Shown: piece after piece, positions 14,330 to 55,204 of the stretch
Layout of the letters: each line of letters opens with the position of its first letter
How positions within the stretch are numbered: position 1 is the stretch's first letter
From: Serratia nevei
GTDB taxonomy: Bacteria; Pseudomonadota; Gammaproteobacteria; Enterobacterales; Enterobacteriaceae
Direction of reading: 5' to 3'
DNA length: 64,000 bases
NCBI RefSeq assembly: GCF_037948395.1
Contig: NZ_CP149940.1
Location: 3,472,001 to 3,536,000, forward strand
Position numbers and translations under genes: made by a program
Notes under the pieces: generated by a model
What the model saw: the letters and a program-made list of their open reading frames with translations, nothing else
What the model was told of the DNA's origin: nothing
Databases searched by the model: none

Positions 14330-14452
14330 TATTATTGATTTTTTATTTTAAAAAAATTCATGTGGTACGCAATTTTGTACGCATCATTTTCTTCAATTCA
14401 CCTCACGAAACCGGTTATTGCTTGACGTACACGAGTTCATCGAACAACATTA

Positions 14453-14468
14453 CTGTATATGCATACAG
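14453..14468. promoter_or_regulatory. LexA (SOS) box before the dinI-like gene
   Basis: CTGTATATGCATACAG is a perfect CTG-N10-CAG LexA operator, itself fully palindromic. It ends 16 bp before the ATG of the DinI-like gene. A TTGACG at 14422-14427 could be its -35. Expression at the prophage left end should therefore be SOS-induced. Confidence 0.88.
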
Positions 14469-14484
14469 TCATTCGAAGGTGCCA

Positions 14485-14733
14485 ATGTTCGTAGAGCTGA
14501 TTTTTGACCAACGTAATGTTAAAGGTTTGCCTGACGCGGCAGAGATAATCAAAGCAGAACTGACAAGGCGGGTACATCGGGTGTTCCCTGATGCAGAGGT
14601 GAAAGTAAAGCCGATGCAAACGAACGGACTCATTAGCGACGCTAACAAAAGCGACAGAGAAAAGTTAAATCGGCTTCTTGAAGATATGTTTGAAGAGTCA
14701 GAACAATGGCTGATGAGTGACATCTATGGGTAG
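14485..14733 (+). CDS. DinI-like family protein (SOS-regulated)
   Basis: An 82-aa protein; ATG at 14485 follows the LexA box directly with a weak AGGTG ribosome site. The sequence fits the DinI family: MFVELIFDQRNVKGLP start, a helix with VHRVFPDAEVKVKPMQTNG, and a C-terminal acidic helix (LNRLLEDMFEESEQWL). DinI modulates RecA filament stability and the SOS response in E. coli. Prophage copies near the tail-fibre end are common. It may tune RecA-driven cleavage of the phage repressor. Confidence 0.88.
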   Translation: MFVELIFDQRNVKGLPDAAEIIKAELTRRVHRVFPDAEVKVKPMQTNGLISDANKSDREKLNRLLEDMFEESEQWLMSDIYG

Positions 14734-14992: not shown

Positions 14993-15799
14993 TTAGATCG
15001 CATTCCAGCCATTCGCCGCAGCGATTTCTTGCATTCGCTTGTACATCAAATCGAATTCTGCGGCAGTTAGAGCGCGGTTGTAGACAGCATATGCGCCCAT
15101 GATCGTGGTGCTGCTTTGAGTTAACCGGCTACCCATATTACCCACACGGATCGTATCCTTGCCTCGCAAATCACGAATCATAGTTAGATCCGCGTTGCGA
15201 CGGTTCAGGGTGATGCCAACTGTCTTATCGATGATGTACCGACGTTTACTCGCAGTCTCCCCAGAGCCAAAATCCCCATTCCCGTCATAAATAGCGGCAA
15301 GGAATCGCCATGTTGCCGTATCCTCCGTCGCTGGCGGCGGGCTAGTGCCATTTGAAATGGAGACGTTATCAGATATAACTGTCGCTCCTGTCGGCGTGCC
15401 ATCATAAACAGATGCGACAGCTGTGCGGTAGCCATTCTGCTCCATGATCAGTCCAGAGCCTGCGACAGTAACACCGGCTGCCGATGTGGTCTGGAATGTA
15501 CCGATTAGATTGCAGGCGCTAAGCCCTGTAGGAGTCCAAATTTTATTTACACTAATATATGTGAAATTCTCCGTTTCATTAATATTAAGGTCGAGATAGC
15601 CAAACCTTCCCAATTTTGAGGATTTCGCATCTATGCGGATTGGGTTTCCGACAATTGTTGGCTGCACGCCACCTTCTACCAAGTTAATGCCCAGCATATC
15701 GCCGCCAAGGCCAAATGACACCAAACCCTCGCTAACAGGAACATCTATGGAAACTCCGGTAGAAAAAATAGAATCACCCATAACTAAATCAATAGCCAT
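14993..15799 (-). CDS. Phage tail-tip associated protein, possibly LamG/concanavalin-like
   Basis: A 268-aa protein directly after the esterase spike gene (4-bp gap), so probably part of the same receptor-binding module. The sequence is beta-rich with many G, T and N residues. Its C-terminal pattern (AYAVYNRALTAAEFDLMYKRM) resembles the end of LamG/concanavalin-fold domains, where a phrase like YNRALT-A-E is typical. It could be a carbohydrate-binding accessory or a second fibre subunit. No signal peptide or membrane helix. Functional assignment is tentative. Confidence 0.6.
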   Translation of the reverse strand: MAIDLVMGDSIFSTGVSIDVPVSEGLVSFGLGGDMLGINLVEGGVQPTIVGNPIRIDAKSSKLGRFGYLDLNINETENFTYISVNKIWTPTGLSACNLIGTFQTTSAAGVTVAGSGLIMEQNGYRTAVASVYDGTPTGATVISDNVSISNGTSPPPATEDTATWRFLAAIYDGNGDFGSGETASKRRYIIDKTVGITLNRRNADLTMIRDLRGKDTIRVGNMGSRLTQSSTTIMGAYAVYNRALTAAEFDLMYKRMQEIAAANGWNAI

Positions 15800-15802
15800 G
15801 TA

Positions 15803-18400
15803 TTAGACCTCGCTACATTCAATTGTTTGGATAGCTGCAAATGTCGCCAGCGAATAATTTTTATTTACCAACTCTGGGATATTCTCTTGCGGATATTGGT
15901 TAGGCATCCCATACTCCCACTTGTTGTAAGCAACTTCACTCCCACTATCGCATATATTGTGCGTTCCGCCATGAGCGCTATCACCTAAAGTCACGGTAAC
16001 TTTTCCAGTTAACTTTCTGGAGCACAAAATCTTAATTACCGTTGGCGAAACAGCGGTAACCGTCAAGTTATCAGAGCTAAGTGCACCTGATGAATCAGCG
16101 ACAGAGATTCCCTTATCTGAATGCTCAACATAGTTCCACCCGCTGAATACTTTGTTGAACTTCAGCGGGCTGATATGAGGTGTCATACCAAGATAAATAG
16201 CATCATCATGATATACACCCTTCTCACACTTAAATGGATATGAGCCATATCCCGACATGTGACGGAATGCATCCCGAGCAAACATAGCGCCAATAATTCG
16301 ATATGAGTTAGCCGATAAATGCGCGCCTGGATTCGATAATCCCTGATACGATCCGACCAGCACGACATTATCATTTTTTAGCGCCAATTCTATTTGCGCG
16401 GAAGGTACACCCATCCCGCGAACATAGTTATTCCCGAGTTGATTAAGCATAAACAGCGGCTTTCGGGCTTGCCCGCTTTTATCCATACATGACGCAATCA
16501 GAGTATCATGCATTGACTGCAAGCGAGGATAATAGAATTCAAACGACTGACCATTATCATTCTCACCCTGCATGTAGATAATGCCGCCAATTTCCCAATC
16601 GTAGCCAGCAGCAGCTGCGGCTTCTGCAATGCCATCCAGGGCGGTCTCCACACGGTTGTATATCTCTGGTGTCGCGCCCTTCTTCAGTTGTTCGATGGTT
16701 CGGCCGGAAACGCCGCAGCAGGCGACGCCGATGATAAAGTCCTCATCATTTTCCACACCCATGCTTTGGTTGTGATAGGCCTTCAAATTATTGGCAAAGG
16801 ACGAAGAAATAGTCTCTCCATATCCGCCAGACGTGTTGGCCACGATGTTTCCTGCGTTATCCTGCATGACCTCAACCAGCGGCCTAAAGATATTTGCACC
16901 ACCAAGCGGCGCATATTCATAAGTTGTATTGGTGGAGAACTTCATACCGCGCGGCGAATCGCCAAGCATCACATTACCTAACGATTGAGTAAGTGATAAG
17001 GCGACGCCGCTTTGCGCACCTACTGAGAACGATTGGCCGTAGACAATCCAAAACTGCACTTTCTTCTTGGTTTTATTTGGATTACCCAGCGCCGGAACGT
17101 TATTAAAAATTCTGCGACCAAAATTGGTTTTTGCCGAATCCGCAAATGACTGTACCAGAGATATAATAGAATCCTCAGACATTTTTCTTGCGGATGAACT
17201 TCCGTCATACCCTGCAATTTTCGCATGCAGCACGCAGTTTTTATCAACACGAAGCCCCACCACGCCACGGCTATCACGAAGTGCAAGAATATCGCCACCG
17301 GTTCCAATCGATATTTTTATGCTCCCGTAACTTAAATTTGTTGCAGAGTTCAATATCGCACTGATTTTCGGGAGGTAAAGGTTACCGGCTTTCGCTTTAA
17401 GAAGGGTAAGACCAAGCCTATCTTTTATCTTAAAACTACCATCATCGCTTTTAACTACAGAGAAATCTTTATTTTTAATGACATTGTCTGATACTTCTGT
17501 GTTTTCAGAGAAAAATCCATTTCTACTAAATTCAACTAATTTGCTGACAAAACCAACCCCGCCGTCATTATCTGCAGACCAATATGCGGCAACCATACCC
17601 AGCTTATCACGCCACCGCATGAATGGTTTTCCTGCGGATTTTTTTATTATATCAGTTATTGCTTTACCTGGAGCATCAGCTATGGCTATAGCTTGACCAT
17701 TAGTTTTTCGGTAATAAATGAATGAAGCATCGGCCCCCACTCCCTGGGCAACTCGGAATGATTTTCCTTCTGATGTTCCCGCTAATCCTGCAATCGTGCC
17801 GTCTGGGTCATCTTCTGTAATATAGTAGGTATTGGCGTCTGCGATGTTCTGGGCATTTTCAGCATAAGTTTTTGCTCTATCAGCGTCTGATTTTGCACTT
17901 TCCGAAGCCCCTTTAGCCTCTTCTGAGCTAACCACTGCTTGCTCTTTGTTTTCGCCAGATATAACCGCATATTCTTTCGCAGATATGCTGGCCTCTTTTG
18001 CCTGGTCTTTTGCTTCTACAGCTGTCGTTGCCGCCCCTATTGCTTCAGAGCTGTTACTGGACGTAATCCCGTACCAGCGCTTCATCTCTGCGTAGACTGT
18101 AGGATCAGCAAGAACAGGGTCAGCAAAGCGGACGTAATCATTAAGTGAGCCTGGCGGGCTATTCGCCTCAAGCTCCATGTCTCCTATCACGGTTGTCCGG
18201 TTTGCTTCCGGGTAAAGCACGGTGACACGGTAGTAGCCAGGTACAAGCTCAAATGAATATTCACCATAAGGCCCGGTTTCTTGGCTTACATGCAACTCAC
18301 GAAACGTATCAGCCGTTGTTCGTTTTGCTAAAATTATTATCTTTGCCCCAGGAACGGCGATGCCTTCCGGGTTGCGAAATTTCCCGGCTAGTTTTATCAT
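15803..18400 (-). CDS. Tail spike with SGNH/sialate-O-acetylesterase-like domain
   Basis: An 865-aa protein. Residues 1-95 form a beta-sandwich attachment domain (MIKLAGKFRNPEGIAVPGAK start, YGEYSFELVPGYYRVTVLYP). Residues about 110-210 are an Ala/Glu-rich coiled coil. A central region follows, then an SGNH-type esterase domain at about 445-720: Ser457 in YGQSFSVG, Gln611-Gly-Glu-Asn-Asp and His694 in AHLSANSYR are positioned as expected for the Ser/His active site and oxyanion Asn of SASA-type carbohydrate esterases. About 140 C-terminal residues may fold as a beta domain. It probably binds and de-O-acetylates host surface polysaccharide. It lies next to a phage acyltransferase gene on the opposite strand. 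Confidence 0.82.
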   Translation of the reverse strand: MIKLAGKFRNPEGIAVPGAKIIILAKRTTADTFRELHVSQETGPYGEYSFELVPGYYRVTVLYPEANRTTVIGDMELEANSPPGSLNDYVRFADPVLADPTVYAEMKRWYGITSSNSSEAIGAATTAVEAKDQAKEASISAKEYAVISGENKEQAVVSSEEAKGASESAKSDADRAKTYAENAQNIADANTYYITEDDPDGTIAGLAGTSEGKSFRVAQGVGADASFIYYRKTNGQAIAIADAPGKAITDIIKKSAGKPFMRWRDKLGMVAAYWSADNDGGVGFVSKLVEFSRNGFFSENTEVSDNVIKNKDFSVVKSDDGSFKIKDRLGLTLLKAKAGNLYLPKISAILNSATNLSYGSIKISIGTGGDILALRDSRGVVGLRVDKNCVLHAKIAGYDGSSSARKMSEDSIISLVQSFADSAKTNFGRRIFNNVPALGNPNKTKKKVQFWIVYGQSFSVGAQSGVALSLTQSLGNVMLGDSPRGMKFSTNTTYEYAPLGGANIFRPLVEVMQDNAGNIVANTSGGYGETISSSFANNLKAYHNQSMGVENDEDFIIGVACCGVSGRTIEQLKKGATPEIYNRVETALDGIAEAAAAAGYDWEIGGIIYMQGENDNGQSFEFYYPRLQSMHDTLIASCMDKSGQARKPLFMLNQLGNNYVRGMGVPSAQIELALKNDNVVLVGSYQGLSNPGAHLSANSYRIIGAMFARDAFRHMSGYGSYPFKCEKGVYHDDAIYLGMTPHISPLKFNKVFSGWNYVEHSDKGISVADSSGALSSDNLTVTAVSPTVIKILCSRKLTGKVTVTLGDSAHGGTHNICDSGSEVAYNKWEYGMPNQYPQENIPELVNKNYSLATFAAIQTIECSEV

Positions 18401-18445
18401 GCTAAAACACCTATTTTAATGAATGACAGATAACAGGGTAATTGA

Positions 18446-19441
18446 GTGAAAGACAGATTGTTTTACTTGGACATGGCTAGAGCACTTTCAATTATTACTG
18501 TGTTCCTTGCACATATTTATTCGGAACAGCTTCCAGAATCATACATATCTAAAATGCTTTTCCTATTTTCTCCATCTGTACCAATGGCTTTACTTGCTAT
18601 TGTGAGTGCCGTGCTAATTACTCCTTCAGTTTTAAAAAGCGCTGGTGATTACTTGAGCAGGCGGTTTGTGAGAATATATATACCTTTACTTATTTGTCTG
18701 GGTATCACTTTTGCAATTAGTAGAATCAACAACCCTTGGGGATATGATTCAACTCATATACTACTACACTCCTTAGGGCTGAGTTTGTTCTTTGAGTTAT
18801 TCAACGTGCAAAATAATGCAGGTATAGGCTATGGATTGTGGTTTATCACGGCCATACTTATCATGTATGTCACCATTCCAATGCAAGTCACGTTATTTAA
18901 AAACAAACACTCATGGCTTTACCTCCTGATACTTATAGCATTATCAACTTTGCTTGGCCTGGGTTTCAACACCCTGGCTGACTTCCCTTCTGTTTTTTCT
19001 GGTTTTTTCATAGGCGTTTATCTAACAGTTAACAACTCGTATGAAAAAGCATTAAACATTAAGTCATCATATTTGTTGATACTATTGATTATCGGAATTG
19101 CCATCAACTACTCACCAATAAATATTCATGGAAAATGGATAAAGGATTTAACATCTGGAGTAATTGCATTAATGATGCTGGCTTTATTTTATAAAATGCA
19201 AAAACTCACCCCTTATTACATTGCAAAATCAATTACATTTTTTAGCCTTATAAGCTATGAATTCTATATGTTGCACTTTTCTTTTATCAATGAACCATTA
19301 AAAAGAATACTCGGAATTACTGGAATAACAAATCAGCTAGCTGTGTCACTTGCCATTTTAATCCCTCTGTCTTTTATTACTCACAAGTTCGGTATGATAC
19401 TGATTAATAAAACAAGATCTAAAACACACAACTCGAATTGA
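18446..19441 (+). CDS. Acyltransferase_3-family O-acetyltransferase (lysogenic-conversion moron)
   Basis: A 331-aa integral membrane protein of about ten helices with the family-3 start (RLFYLDMARALSIITVFLAHI: Arg before the conserved His) and a late YEFYMLHF motif. GTG start with AGGG upstream. Relatives O-acetylate O-antigen or capsule and change serotype (for example Oac of phage Sf6). It lies in the tail-fibre locus but on the opposite strand to all structural genes. It is clearly more AT-rich than the surroundings, so it can be expressed from the lysogen. Likely role: modify the receptor polysaccharide of the host. The acceptor is unknown. Confidence 0.87.
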   Translation: MKDRLFYLDMARALSIITVFLAHIYSEQLPESYISKMLFLFSPSVPMALLAIVSAVLITPSVLKSAGDYLSRRFVRIYIPLLICLGITFAISRINNPWGYDSTHILLHSLGLSLFFELFNVQNNAGIGYGLWFITAILIMYVTIPMQVTLFKNKHSWLYLLILIALSTLLGLGFNTLADFPSVFSGFFIGVYLTVNNSYEKALNIKSSYLLILLIIGIAINYSPINIHGKWIKDLTSGVIALMMLALFYKMQKLTPYYIAKSITFFSLISYEFYMLHFSFINEPLKRILGITGITNQLAVSLAILIPLSFITHKFGMILINKTRSKTHNSN

Positions 19442-19481
19442 ACTACAGCATATTGAAATTTAGCCCCCAAAAGGGCTAAAT

Positions 19482-19904
19482 TTAATTAGGCAATTCAGGC
19501 CATGTGATTTCCGGAGCGTCCGATGGATTTACACGATTTAAAATAACGCTATAGCGCTCCCAATCTTCTAACTGTACTTTTTCAGTTTCAGTCGCCATGC
19601 TTAACCTTACAGCTCTTTCTAGCAGAGAGATCCTTTCTCCTGCATCGGCCATTAATTGATTCTTCTTTATAGTTGCAATCTGAACGGATGTATTTTTATC
19701 AGGTGGGGTTTGACTTACCCAGGCCGGCCCACCACTTTCAGAACCTAGCATCATCCCGACAGGAGGCACAGCAATATATTTCTCATAATCGGCATGAGAT
19801 ATCTCTATGGCATCATCAGGCCAACTGTTATTAACCTCGTACCGTTCTTTTGATATAACAGAAGTTGGATAAAAACCCATTGTCTTTTCACTGAAAAATA
19901 TCAT
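19482..19904 (-). CDS. Tail fibre assembly protein (Tfa-like)
   Basis: A 140-aa protein with ATG at 19904 and GGAG seven bases before it, 2 bp after the fibre gene stop. The sequence has the Tfa form: an N-terminal MIFFSEKTMGFYPTSV, a middle PPVGMMLG-containing segment and a C-terminal helix with LLERAV, then WERYSVILNRV. Tfa proteins are chaperones for folding and trimerising the adjacent fibre. Position directly behind the fibre gene supports this. Confidence 0.88.
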   Translation of the reverse strand: MIFFSEKTMGFYPTSVISKERYEVNNSWPDDAIEISHADYEKYIAVPPVGMMLGSESGGPAWVSQTPPDKNTSVQIATIKKNQLMADAGERISLLERAVRLSMATETEKVQLEDWERYSVILNRVNPSDAPEITWPELPN

Positions 19905-19906
19905 TA

Positions 19907-20716
19907 TTATGCTCCTACTGCCATCCAATAACATTGCGTTTCGCTTGAGCGCATTACTAGATCGAAACTTGTTTTTGTGACATTTTGAACGATGATGTTT
20001 TGAGATGACACTCCCATCTGTGCAGTTTGCGTTACTAGAACAGAAACACATCCAAGCGGAAATGCTATAGGAAATGTCACAGTCATAACGTCAGCCGTTC
20101 TGTATACTGTCCCACCCTGCATTATTCTATTTGTGCGGTTATTTACGTCAGCCCAATACCATGACTCCAGAGTAAAACTTGATTGTGCTGGCGGTTGATT
20201 ATATTGATTATAGCAGTTGTCATTCGCCCATTTCTTCGCATTGTTTTCTGCCGAATTGGCTTTTTCTTGCGCGATGTTCGCAGCCTGTTGCTGAGTTTCT
20301 CCTTTACTGTAAACATCAAGATTGAACCTTGAGTCACCTTTATTCGACAAGTCAGATAAGTTGTTTGCCTTTATTAAAAACCGACTATCACCCTCGCCTT
20401 TACTGTACACATCAATATTCTTTCTAGCTTCTGACTTATTTATCAAATCAGAGAGGTTACTTTGTTTAAGCAAATAATTAGCACCACTTTCTGACAACAG
20501 TTTTTTAATTGCCAAATAAAGTTGATTGTGTTTGCTTTTATCTAGGAGCATGCCCGCACCCTCAATAGCATTTGCTATTTCTTCCTGCACGGCATCCCAC
20601 ATGTCGCTGTTTAATTCTGTCGCACGTCGTCCTGTCGTGCGATCCCCATTAGTAAAACCATTTTTCCCCTGCCCAAATTTATCTACTTGGGCAGTAGGTG
20701 TGTCAATGCGATGCAT
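19907..20716 (-). CDS. Phage tail fibre protein
   Basis: A 269-aa protein; ATG at 20716 with GGAG upstream. The N-terminus (MHRIDTPTAQVDKFGQGKNGFT) is typical of Mu/P2-like fibre proteins that join the baseplate. The middle has imperfect repeats ending DVYSKGE (about residues 103 and 138), spaced by NLSDL segments, which suggest a trimeric repeated shaft. The C-terminus is a beta-rich head with tryptophan and cysteine near the end. Followed by its Tfa partner. It is shorter than most fibres, so it may carry only one of the phage's two receptor specificities. Confidence 0.87.
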   Translation of the reverse strand: MHRIDTPTAQVDKFGQGKNGFTNGDRTTGRRATELNSDMWDAVQEEIANAIEGAGMLLDKSKHNQLYLAIKKLLSESGANYLLKQSNLSDLINKSEARKNIDVYSKGEGDSRFLIKANNLSDLSNKGDSRFNLDVYSKGETQQQAANIAQEKANSAENNAKKWANDNCYNQYNQPPAQSSFTLESWYWADVNNRTNRIMQGGTVYRTADVMTVTFPIAFPLGCVSVLVTQTAQMGVSSQNIIVQNVTKTSFDLVMRSSETQCYWMAVGA

Positions 20717-20717
20717 T

Positions 20718-21296
20718 TTATTCTCCGTCAGACTCAGGATAAGAAAAAATAACAACAGTGTGAGATGGAGCTAACTTTTCAATCACACATTCCGCGACGG
20801 TGTCACCCCACGTTCTAATTGCAGAATTACAACTACTGGTGCATGTCTGCCAGGCAATGCTGGAATCTGCTGGAATAGTCACCCGCCAGTAATAGCGCCA
20901 TTTATCGCCCCACTCGGGATTAGGGCTTTCATTAAGGTTTTGGTACTGCTCTATAGTTACTGATGAATATCCTAACGCATCGAGCTGGTTCCGATAGAAT
21001 TGCTCATTGATACCACCAGCAACGTTAATTTTCGCATCCAACCGCTGCTGGCGCTGCAATAATGTTTGTGTTCCCGGTGGTGAGCAAGAGTCTGGAAGAC
21101 CACATAGCCGCTCATAGCGGTCAATTAGCTCCACTGTTTGAGCCGGGTTAATCTCCTGCATCAGGTCATCACCGCGTTTATGTACTGATGCAAGAGATGG
21201 GGCAAGCCCTCTTAATAATGCGTTATCACCTTCCCATGCAGGGCCTAAAGGAAGCAAATTATAAAGCAGGTTCGTATAGTCGTCTTCCAGTGCCAT
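20718..21296 (-). CDS. Mu gp48-like baseplate protein (YmfQ/DUF2313)
   Basis: A 192-aa protein beginning MALEDDYTNLLYNLLPLGPAW, the form of the YmfQ/DUF2313 family. It contains LIDRYERLCGLPDSC and an RQQRLDAKI segment that are family hallmarks. In Mu this protein lies at the outer edge of the baseplate, between the wedge protein and the fibre. Its gene ends 2 bp before the fibre start, in the same order as in Mu. Confidence 0.88.
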   Translation of the reverse strand: MALEDDYTNLLYNLLPLGPAWEGDNALLRGLAPSLASVHKRGDDLMQEINPAQTVELIDRYERLCGLPDSCSPPGTQTLLQRQQRLDAKINVAGGINEQFYRNQLDALGYSSVTIEQYQNLNESPNPEWGDKWRYYWRVTIPADSSIAWQTCTSSCNSAIRTWGDTVAECVIEKLAPSHTVVIFSYPESDGE

Positions 21297-39640: not shown

Positions 39641-40669
39641 TCAGTTTTCCGGGAATATCTCCCGTTGTGTTTGTTCGAACCGTTCAGACTCCATCTCTAC
39701 ACCAAGACCGATACGGCCCAGCTTGATAGCTGCCTTGATGGTTGAGCCAGAACCCATGAAGAAGTCGGCCACCACGTCACCGGGGCGGCTACTGGCGCTG
39801 ATGATGTGCTCCATCATTTCGGCGGGCTTTTCACAGGGGTGCTTGCCAGGGTAGAAGGCAACCGGCGGATAGTGCCAAACGTCAGTGTAGGGAACCGCTG
39901 CCGTTACCGTGAAAGGGCGGCGGAGCGATCGGTATTCCTGGCACAATTCCAAATATTCGCGGTTCAGCGTCCGGTATTCTCGCACCAGCTCATGATGGGG
40001 CCGATTCAATCCACCAGCCTGCTGCCGCTCTTTTGCGATGCGGTCAAATAACGCCTGGAGCGCCTGATACTGCTTTTCGCTTGGCAACTGCCATTGGCTC
40101 TCAGAGAACCAGTGGCTGCACATCTGCGTTTTTGTTGCCGCGTTGATTTCCTTCGCTGACACGCCGAGGGATTGCCGGGCCGTTCTGAAATAATCGATCA
40201 GCGGTTTAAAGACGTTTTGCTTCAGTTCTCCACACTTCGCGGCGAAGCCGTCTACCTTCGGTTGTAGAGGCCCGGCATAGTGACCGGCGAAAATGATCCG
40301 CTCAGTCGATGGGAAGAAAGCCCGTAGCCCTTCTTTGTGCTGTCGCTTCCAAGCCCCCGAGGGTTTAGCCCACACGATATGGCTCAGCACGTCGAAACGT
40401 TGACGCACCAGCAGCTCAGTATCGGACGCCAACCGGCTACCGCAGAACATGTAAAGGCTACCGTTCGGTTTCAGCACCCGCCAGAATTCCACCAGCAACG
40501 CATCCAGCCAGGCGAGATACTCGGCCTCGTTCTTCCACTGGTTATCCCAATCGCAAGATTTAACCCGGAAATAAGGCGGGTCAGTCGCTATCAGGTCTAC
40601 GGAGTTGTCCGGCAGGGTTTTGATAAACGCTGTTGTGTCAGCGTTGATAAGACGTGTTTCTGAAATCAT
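39641..40669 (-). CDS. DNA methyltransferase, beta-class (probable N6-adenine)
   Basis: A 342-aa enzyme from ATG at 40669. The catalytic motif DPPY is at residues 30-33 and the SAM-binding FMGSGST lies at 304-310; this order makes it a beta-class enzyme, usually N6-adenine. A large insert occurs between (about 130-260), which should hold the target-recognition domain. No restriction gene accompanies it. Probable role: protect phage DNA from host restriction or regulate transcription. It is the first gene behind the late promoter and terminator. Confidence 0.9.
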   Translation of the reverse strand: MISETRLINADTTAFIKTLPDNSVDLIATDPPYFRVKSCDWDNQWKNEAEYLAWLDALLVEFWRVLKPNGSLYMFCGSRLASDTELLVRQRFDVLSHIVWAKPSGAWKRQHKEGLRAFFPSTERIIFAGHYAGPLQPKVDGFAAKCGELKQNVFKPLIDYFRTARQSLGVSAKEINAATKTQMCSHWFSESQWQLPSEKQYQALQALFDRIAKERQQAGGLNRPHHELVREYRTLNREYLELCQEYRSLRRPFTVTAAVPYTDVWHYPPVAFYPGKHPCEKPAEMMEHIISASSRPGDVVADFFMGSGSTIKAAIKLGRIGLGVEMESERFEQTQREIFPEN

Positions 40670-40889
40670 AAGCGCCCTTAGTTGATACGCTCGTCCTGCT
40701 GTTCGCAGCACGGGCAAAGGTTCGCTTGTGACCATTGACATGAGCACCTGGCGGACGGGGTGTTACCTCACCCTATCCGCCGCCCACTTCACAAACATTA
40801 AGGCGAAGCCCCATTACCCCGCTGCCGACACACCCCCTCAGTTGGGACACCGGTTAATGTTGGATGAGGCTTCGCTTTAATTTTTCCAT

Positions 40890-53847: not shown

Positions 53848-54039
53848 ATGCAAGATATCAACCTGATCCCTGAAAAGGAGGTCATGGCGAAGCTTGGCAT
53901 TTCGTCACGATCGACCATGTACACCTACCAGAACAAACACTGTTTCCCTAAGCCGGTTCGCACTCACCCAAAAGCATATTTAGAGAGTGCGGTTAATCAG
54001 TGGATACTCAACGGCGGCATCAACCAGAAAGCTTCTTAA
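53848..54039 (+). CDS. AlpA-like excisionase / DNA-binding regulator
   Basis: A 63-aa winged-helix protein (INLIPEKEVMAKLGISSRST, MYTYQNKHCFPKPVRTHPKA, YLESAVNQWI), the AlpA/Xis form. AAGGAGG lies inside its own early codons; GAGGTAAC precedes ATG. It converges with and overlaps the last 20 bases of the integrase gene, so the two are adjacent but oppositely transcribed: excisionase from PL, integrase from its own promoter. Confidence 0.85.
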   Translation: MQDINLIPEKEVMAKLGISSRSTMYTYQNKHCFPKPVRTHPKAYLESAVNQWILNGGINQKAS

Positions 54040-55204
54040 CATGCCAAAAAAGCTTATCGGCATGTATCTCATACCCTTCCTTTTGCCCTTCTATCCAATC
54101 GTGCTTGTTGTAGACGGCCATCACCCCACCCAGCTCATGCCCCAGCATTCTTTCCGTAATGTGTGGGGCTACCCCTTCCTCTGAAAGGCGTGTCACCAAC
54201 GTCCGCCGGAAATCGTGCGCACGCCAATACCCTATATCCAAACCTTCCCGAATGCGTTTTATGTAACGATTGGCCGCAGAGATCGTTAGAGGTTCCGTGA
54301 TCAGATTCCCTGGGAAAAGAACCTTGTCATACGTCAGCATTGCCTTTTCCAGCAACGGCTCAATTTGCTTGAAGATCGGACGCCGGATTTCCTTTCCTGT
54401 TTTGCTGTGCTCTTTTGGTACAGTCCAGAGCATTTCCCTTAGATCAAACTCCTGACGCTCAGATAACCTCAACTCGGACAACCGCGCTCCCCAGAGCATG
54501 AGCATTTGGTGCAAAAGCTTATTTGAAGTTGACGCCCTGCTGCGCTCTATTGCGATCCAAATTTCTGCCAGCTCAAAGTAAGTAAGAATTCTATCCCCGG
54601 TTTCAGAACGGCTCCCTACGTCACGAGGCTCAACCTTCATTACTGAGCAATCGGGTATAAAATGCCGACGGATACACCACCCCATCGCTGATCGCAACTG
54701 GACAAGTAGTTGACGCGCCCGCCTGCTGTTTTCCCTTTCCTCTTGAGTAAACAAATCAACCCATTGCTTAACGGTAATCTCTGCTACTGGACGCCCTTCA
54801 AAAGCATCACTTAAACGTTTAATGACAGTCGATTTATACAGCTCTCTACTGTTCTCACGAAGCGAGACATCAACGTAGTTTTCCTTCCAATAATTCAAAC
54901 AGTCCTTCACTGTTGCCCTGTTGCCGATATCTCCGCTTTTATCAAAATACTGGCGCGGGTCTATCCCTCGGTCATAGAGGGTGCGCAGCTCTGATGTGAT
55001 TGCACGAGCCTCTTTCAAAGCGACGGCAGGATACCTGCCAATCCCTAATCGTTGGGCTTTGCCATGCCACCGGTATCGAAACTGAAAGTTGATCACCCCT
55101 TTGGGCGAAATGCGGGCGCTAAGCCCATCGGCATCGGACACTTCAGGACTTCCCGAATATGGTTTACCATGTAGTGAGCGCAGTTTTGTATCGCTGAGAG
55201 CCAT
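54020..55204 (-). CDS. int: Tyrosine integrase
   Basis: A 394-aa recombinase with DUF4102-type N-terminal arm-binding domain (DTKLRSLHGKPYSGSPEVSD, GKAQRLGIGRYPAVALKEAR), core-binding domain and catalytic domain. Active-site residues: Arg241 (WGARLSEL), His330-x-x-Arg333 (HDFRRT), His356 (MLGHE) and Tyr365 (AVYNKHDW). It inserts the phage at the sbcB core ATTCACGATTAC, 214 bp from its start codon. The 55205-55384 gap holds its promoter and probable arm sites. Confidence 0.95.
   Translation of the reverse strand: MALSDTKLRSLHGKPYSGSPEVSDADGLSARISPKGVINFQFRYRWHGKAQRLGIGRYPAVALKEARAITSELRTLYDRGIDPRQYFDKSGDIGNRATVKDCLNYWKENYVDVSLRENSRELYKSTVIKRLSDAFEGRPVAEITVKQWVDLFTQEERENSRRARQLLVQLRSAMGWCIRRHFIPDCSVMKVEPRDVGSRSETGDRILTYFELAEIWIAIERSRASTSNKLLHQMLMLWGARLSELRLSERQEFDLREMLWTVPKEHSKTGKEIRRPIFKQIEPLLEKAMLTYDKVLFPGNLITEPLTISAANRYIKRIREGLDIGYWRAHDFRRTLVTRLSEEGVAPHITERMLGHELGGVMAVYNKHDWIEGQKEGYEIHADKLFWHVKKLSG

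Follow-up and report, generated by a model that had tools for sequence, protein, structure and literature searches.

A predicted esterase tail spike and a predicted acyltransferase as probably independent modules at the conversion locus of a Serratia nevei prophage

What is the relationship between two neighbouring prophage genes, one of which probably removes acetyl groups from surface sugars while the other probably adds them? The question is raised by a 64,000-nucleotide stretch of the Serratia nevei genome (assembly GCF_037948395.1, contig NZ_CP149940.1, positions 3,472,001 to 3,536,000; hereafter the window, in whose own numbering coordinates are given). Here the gene for an 865-residue tail spike (15803..18400, minus strand) lies 45 bp from a divergently oriented gene for a 331-residue acyltransferase_3 (AT3) O-acyltransferase (18446..19441, plus strand, opposite to the tail operon). 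A preliminary description of this DNA had read the two as an add/remove pair that deacetylates the receptor on entry, alters acetylation in the resident state and might move as a cassette. We propose instead, with good confidence, that two independent modules stand side by side at the conversion locus of an SfV-type temperate phage. To judge from its genes, the prophage is of this type, with a Mu-like contractile tail, and the locus is the end of its tail operon.

The spike matches the Pfam family SASA (PF03629; E 3e-9, 37.3 bits against a curated cut-off of 24.8) and, at its N-terminus (residues 2-134), phage_tail_N (PF08400; E 4.5e-8). A catalytic set is recognizable in Ser457 (GQS), the QGEND motif at 611-615 and His694 (GAHLS). 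In an alignment of 23 sequences, the window's among them, Ser457, Glu613 and His694 do not vary, and at least 90% of the sequences share Asn614 and Asp615. A structure prediction, suggested by the preliminary description and run on residues 436-865, which comprise the esterase domain and a C-terminal beta-rich part (15803..17095, minus strand), recovered an SGNH esterase fold at a predicted local distance difference test (pLDDT) score of 90.7; the model resembles a phage tailspike, carbohydrate acetylesterases, SIAE, NanS and G7C gp63.1. The SGNH-type domain described earlier is upheld by the family match, the model and the residues, all of which had been numbered correctly. The model gives the spike a carbohydrate-esterase fold with a complete catalytic set, and the protein probably removes acetyl groups from surface sugars.

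The opposite-strand neighbour, likewise, is what it had been taken for. It matches the AT3 family PF01757 (E 5e-17, 62.4 bits against a curated cut-off of 31) and phrog_3333, ‘O-acetyltransferase’ (E 8.5e-20). In 12 aligned sequences, again including the window's, R12-X10-H23 is nearly invariant and R73xxR76 invariant; R/K-X10-H and RXXR are motifs named as essential in AT3 proteins (PMC9558356). The AT3 family is marked by ten transmembrane helices, and a Kyte-Doolittle scan of this protein, on its own, delineates six hydrophobic segments above 1.6. As the curated cut-offs of both families are passed, the assignments of spike and acyltransferase are not due to chance; NCBIfam returned no match for either protein, nor for orf268, the gene that follows the spike. 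We consider that the enzyme probably adds acetyl groups to surface sugars. Its gene has a GC content of 34.5%, as against 52.6% for window positions 22000-50000, and the branch to which it belongs is rare: of 6658 candidates, 13 database proteins, its own entry included, match at E <= 0.001. A tblastn search for relatives in other sequenced phages found none. A relative at 43% identity is present in one of 29 other Serratia genomes, and one at 43% in one of 391 other genomes of the family (E <= 1e-20); in the 20-kb regions around these two (L038, L039), BLASTP recognized none of 17 other window genes.

To which part of the phage does the acyltransferase gene belong? Starting from the baseplate, the order is gpI, fibre, tail-fibre assembly gene (tfa), acyltransferase on the opposite strand, spike and orf268, so that the pair does lie in the tail-fibre locus, as had been stated. 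The acyltransferase gene sits directly after tfa, on the opposite strand and towards the attachment site (att) and the integrase gene (int), which is the position of a conversion slot. A terminator-like hairpin (19456..19483) separates the convergent ends of the acyltransferase gene and tfa; on the plus strand it folds with a z of -3.9, equalled by none of 200 shuffles, and on the minus strand with a z of -2.5, equalled by 3 of 200, and it is missing from the list of a separate pattern scan. The baseplate J protein (gpJ) of the window's phage is 56% identical to those of SfV and SfII and about 66% identical to that of ST64B. In SfV the slot between tfa and int holds gtrV-gtrB-gtrA on the opposite strand and gtr genes only. 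In SfII it holds an acyltransferase gene, then gtrII-gtrB-gtrA, with a transposase gene between, also on the opposite strand and with int next. Neither phage has a spike gene annotated between tfa and int, and the window's acyltransferase is weakly similar to SfII_25 (BLASTP E 0.007).

The same slot was surveyed in relatives. Among 16 viral contigs sharing gpJ, it holds an AT3 gene in six (the window's phage included) and a hexapeptide acetyltransferase gene in two, so that acyltransferases fill 8 of the 13 readable slots; the others contain Mig-14-like genes (two), a phosphoethanolamine-transferase-like gene, a gene with a CNF1-family domain and one gene without identification, and three contigs have no slot gene or end there. 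These slot genes, acyltransferases and others alike, mostly occur without an esterase spike. An AT3 or hexapeptide gene follows fibre or tfa in 21 of 80 loci with related fibres (80 kept of 88, a redundant set), always on the opposite strand; a looser count gives 22, one on the same strand. In 27 genome regions with this baseplate, taken from 29 match places outside the window (one was skipped and one fell inside a region already fetched), AT3 stands right after fibre or tfa in three (L314, L326, L330), and our own profiles found a full esterase spike in none of the 27, some of which are cut by contig ends; L328 carries a spike-like gene without an esterase match. The notion that slot acyltransferases are confined to phages with esterase spikes is refuted by the gpJ relatives, the fibre loci and the baseplate regions. 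Another of the 27 regions, read in the orientation of the baseplate, has a 251-residue lipoprotein-like open reading frame (ORF) after tfa with a weak, short match to the SASA-spike profile (L321:2943-3698, minus strand, 23 bits). A literature search for the slot as a hot spot found nothing direct.

Do spike and acyltransferase nevertheless travel together? Several loci of contig 2627853940 (L051, L054, L134, L172, L232 and others) represent the window's phage itself or a near-identical copy and are not independent of it. In all five other loci read, this esterase clade occurs with no acyltransferase or with another one: L135 has a hexapeptide acetyltransferase in the same place on the opposite strand, in L136 a different AT3 lies on the same strand, and none was found in L137, in L138 (whose contig is cut after the spike) or in Serratia phage MQ-4 (ON853583). 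The MQ-4 spike is 78.6% identical over residues 175-864; the 12 kb examined there contain no AT3 or hexapeptide gene, and the other tail genes of the window were not recognized there. This acyltransferase, in turn, lacks a SASA spike beside it in both other viral loci. L052, with an 85% identical enzyme, has a spike of a different esterase family, GDSL_2; in L053/L238 (one contig, 73%) a spike is absent, and the next genes are HicB-like and universal-stress-protein genes. Since each gene is found without the other, neither needs its neighbour. A search for the same pair in other phages had been proposed, and no further locus with both this esterase and this acyltransferase turned up among those read.

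For a test of association, 28 of the 80 fibre loci with less than 1.5 kb after tfa or fibre were omitted, which left 52. An acyltransferase lies beside a tail_N spike with an esterase match in 3 of 4 loci (two of the four spikes being those of L233/L139 and L059), against 14 of 48 loci without a spike (Fisher p 0.10). With other spike loci added the figures become 5/9 against 14/48 (p 0.14), and with Serratia phage BZS1, which was found through its paper and excluded from the 5/9 count, 6/10 against 14/48 (p 0.08). In a wide set of SASA spikes, an AT3 or hexapeptide gene lies within 3 kb of the spike in 6 of 60 viral loci, three of the six belonging to the window's own close clade and the 60 including redundant loci and loci cut by contig ends. 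An association over the slot background is possible but not significant, and with both genes separable the earlier suggestion that they move together as a cassette is not supported.

The idea of adding and removing acetyl groups is already in print, as speculation, for phage BZS1, whose gene order is closely similar (PMC7556043). In vB_SspM_BZS1 (p23-p28, MT843275) the fibre gene is followed by an opposite-strand AT3 gene (p24), two small genes, a PF03629 tail protein (p27), p28, att and the integrase. The PF03629 assignment of p27 was made by its authors with HHpred (PMC7556043), and our own SASA profile matches p27 with an E of 2e-12 in a one-sequence search. In a proposal that they label highly speculative, the authors have p27 deacetylate the O-antigen for entry and p24 acetylate it in lysogeny as a guard against superinfection; mass spectrometry detected both p27 and p28 in virions (PMC7556043). 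Applied to the window, such a coordinated pair would deacetylate the receptor on entry and acetylate it in the lysogen, so as to exclude relatives or free progeny. It gains from the fact that the BZS1 acyltransferase and spike, in their similar arrangement, are unrelated by BLASTP to the window's (no significant similarity for p24, p27 or p28), and from the several types of acyltransferase that adjoin esterase spikes. The two phages nonetheless differ: the BZS1 backbone is another one, with 32% identity in baseplate J; its annotation lists no separate tfa; and between AT3 and spike BZS1 has XRE and small membrane ORFs that are absent in the window and present in L233/L139, loci with another AT3 and a divergent SASA-like spike. 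With the association not significant and the genes separable, and for a mechanistic reason given below, we regard a coordinated pair as unlikely. As regards the small genes, ORFs at L233:14470-14733 and L139:7719-7892, beside AT3, match BZS1 p25 (XRE-like) and p26 with 84% and 98% identity, and in S. proteamaculans 336X an acetyltransferase gene is reported always to adjoin such small-gene pairs (PMC7556043).

How would two independent modules work? The first would consist of the spike and orf268. The spike, presumably carried in the virion, would most likely bind O-acetylated surface polysaccharide and strip its acetyl groups during adsorption; the fold and residues described above point to the activity. 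The second would be the AT3 gene as a lysogenic-conversion gene, oriented against the tail operon, followed by the terminator-like hairpin and expressed, we infer, in the lysogen. Its family and its slot suggest an enzyme that most likely places acetyl groups on O-antigen or on some other surface glycan, a modification that would block phages that use the glycan. There are precedents for both activities. Oac of phage Sf6 is an AT3 protein whose acetylation of O-antigen makes cells immune to further Sf6 (PMC9558356), and in Sf101 the tail spike is encoded by orf15, OacB is gp16 and the integrase gene is orf18 (PMC9558356, PMC4159516 and PMC8787464 for the two phages); the Sf6 spike, however, is an endorhamnosidase and not an esterase as in the window's phage. 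Of Klebsiella prophage SGNH tail proteins, two were confirmed to be active on p-nitrophenyl acetate, a predicted acetyltransferase is found in 5-30% of Klebsiella prophages per K-locus, and the interplay of acetylation and deacetylation is discussed (PMC13123978); the available portion of that study describes no specific gene pair in this slot.

The precedents also bear on what the acyltransferase could exclude. For G7C, removal of an O-acetyl group is reported to be essential for infection, as cited in PMC13123978. An esterase spike of this kind acts on acetylated glycan; a phage that enters through its spike would therefore not be shut out if the same position were acetylated again, and this is the mechanistic point against a coordinated pair. 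By this analysis, acetylation at the same position would help re-adsorption, and exclusion would need a different position or target, for example the receptor of the fibre. The esterase spikes of Moo19 and B2 depend on O-antigen modifications of a serotype with O-acetyl and glucosyl groups, where single tests did not cover every acetyl group (PMC11654681). Together with the need of G7C for deacetylation, this dependence fits masking of the fibre's receptor better. Moreover, the closest relatives co-inherit the acyltransferase with the fibre tip and tfa, which makes the masked receptor more likely to be that of the fibre than that of the spike.

The co-inheritance is seen in a first set of 17 loci with a slot gene. 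All 10 pairs whose slot genes share at least 50% identity have tfa at least 58% and tip at least 56% identical, and the remaining 126 pairs reach at most 39% (tfa) and 44% (tip). The observed mean was reached by none of 10000 permutations for tfa or tip, by 9397 for the fibre N-terminus and by 9626 for J, and in 7 of the 10 pairs the two backbones differ, with J at most 24% identical. The 10 pairs are not independent, since they fall into only three clusters and the slot gene had served to find some of the loci; a second run without L237, a near-duplicate of L234, had the same outcome. The fibre tip itself was found in none of 391 other family genomes at E <= 1e-12.

A number of observations weigh against our proposal and the link to the fibre. 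Of the 80 fibre loci, 39 were cut or yielded no slot gene, and the other 41 gave 33 non-redundant loci, in which a slot gene is shared in only 6 of 16 pairs with tips at least 50% identical, and tips are unlike in 17 of 23 pairs that share a slot gene (the class ‘other’ in this wider set is mechanical, any opposite-strand ORF of at least 150 residues, and may hold spurious ORFs). Exceptions run both ways: L082 and L087 have tips 99% and acyltransferases 27% identical, and L082 and L106 have acyltransferases 98% and tips 29% identical. In these 33 loci the slot gene also tracks the backbone, with 0 of 3000 permutations for J and for the fibre N-terminus, and the effects of tip and kinship therefore cannot be told apart there. 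As to the spike, the point estimate favours an association with the acyltransferase (odds ratio 7.3 or 3.0, from very few spikes), and an acyltransferase repeatedly adjoins esterase spikes of different families (window, L052, L233/L139, L135, L136, BZS1). The spikes of L233/L139 and L059 are esterases only by our own profile and motif, with no Pfam esterase family. A promoter scan, finally, was at chance level, with 14 found against 14.6 expected. A strict rule tying every tip to its slot gene is rejected, as the perfect separation of the 17 loci broke down in the wider fibre set.

If acetyl masks are common in this phage type, might the spike serve to remove those laid by other prophages, so that the virion reaches the fibre's receptor on converted cells? 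The frequency of slot acyltransferases (21 of 80 fibre loci, 8 of 16 gpJ relatives) and the presence of the spike as a second predicted adhesin beside the fibre are in keeping with such a role. Related esterase spikes, however, turn up frequently in records from Klebsiella (51 of 87 phage records), and there the acetylation may be the capsule's own; we regard this role as a tentative idea, on balance improbable. Similarly speculative, and rather improbable in our estimate, is an extension in which fibre tip, tfa and acetyltransferase form a lock-and-mask cassette moving between unrelated backbones, the masking enzyme accompanying the tip that recognizes the masked receptor, with the esterase spike as an independent can-opener that removes the masks of other prophages.

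A different view of the slot is that the acyltransferase is cargo of benefit to the host, acting on a target unrelated to phage adsorption, as in resistance to antibodies or peptides. The Mig-14-like and phosphoethanolamine-transferase-like genes of the same slot, and the CNF1-family domain of one relative, lend themselves to this view. The predominance of acyltransferases, in 8 of 13 readable gpJ slots, and the O-antigen modifiers, as annotated by name, in the slots of SfV and SfII speak against it, and we give it little credence. The slot genes concerned are L234:13571-14539 and L237:13571-14539 (Mig-14-like, PF07395 in L234, L237 97% identical), L236:13569-15140 (phosphoethanolamine-transferase-like, PF00884; below the NCBIfam cut-off) and L245:13409-14512 (minus strand, CNF1-family domain, PF05785 E 3e-52; NCBIfam E 5e-24, far below its cut-off). 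Just past the slot, a HicB-like ORF with a near-identical start recurs (L053:2869-3291, PF15919; L240:14183-14605; L244:14643-15065; L246:14819-15241; L234:14578-15000; L237:14578-15000), and NCBIfam gave no match for the L244 copy. The host's second contig encodes a hexapeptide acetyltransferase (G000:C2:106134-106634, L344) that shares 54% identity with the L240 slot enzyme; around relatives of the hexapeptide enzyme, in seven other family genomes and on this contig, no tfa-profile match was found within flanks of up to 1.5 kb.

To return to the two modules that we favour, the constant partner of the spike is not the acyltransferase gene but the next gene, orf268 (268 residues, 14993..15799, minus strand, 3 bp after the spike; phrog_4390, function unassigned). 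It stands directly after this spike in all four viral loci that encode it, one of them the window's phage. A homologue (81%) follows the spike in MQ-4 too, and in L138 the contig stops at the spike. In position orf268 takes the place of a virion-associated protein of BZS1, with no BLASTP similarity between the two; its predicted structure (pLDDT 34.5) is unusable.

The remaining features place the locus in its prophage, which spans from about 14 kb, at a DinI-like gene beyond orf268 (14335..14733, plus strand, profile matches), to a phage integrase at the other end (phrog_1, 54020..55204, minus strand), in a host genome of 5.46 Mb. The tail genes are on the minus strand and include, besides spike and orf268, gpI (20718-21296), a 282-residue tail fibre with a gp53-like C-terminal tip (19907..20755) and the tail-fibre assembly protein, Caudo_TAP (19482..20051), the last two identified by profile matches. 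The prophage also has a DNA methyltransferase gene (39641-40747, minus strand, phrog_6952 E 2e-86). No near-identical DNA of the region was found in E. coli.

What are the implications for temperate phages of this type? With this locus Serratia supplies one more example in line with the published idea that temperate phages are engaged both in stripping surface sugars of acetyl groups and in adding such groups. It also corrects the unit to be considered: the acyltransferase is part of the conversion slot, and its companion in the closest relatives is the fibre tip, not the esterase spike. Should tip and enzyme be truly cognate, one could deduce the receptor of a fibre from what the neighbouring enzyme modifies. 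Should the lock-and-mask arrangement prove true, a single slot would display the masking as well as the unmasking in a contest between temperate phages over acetylation.

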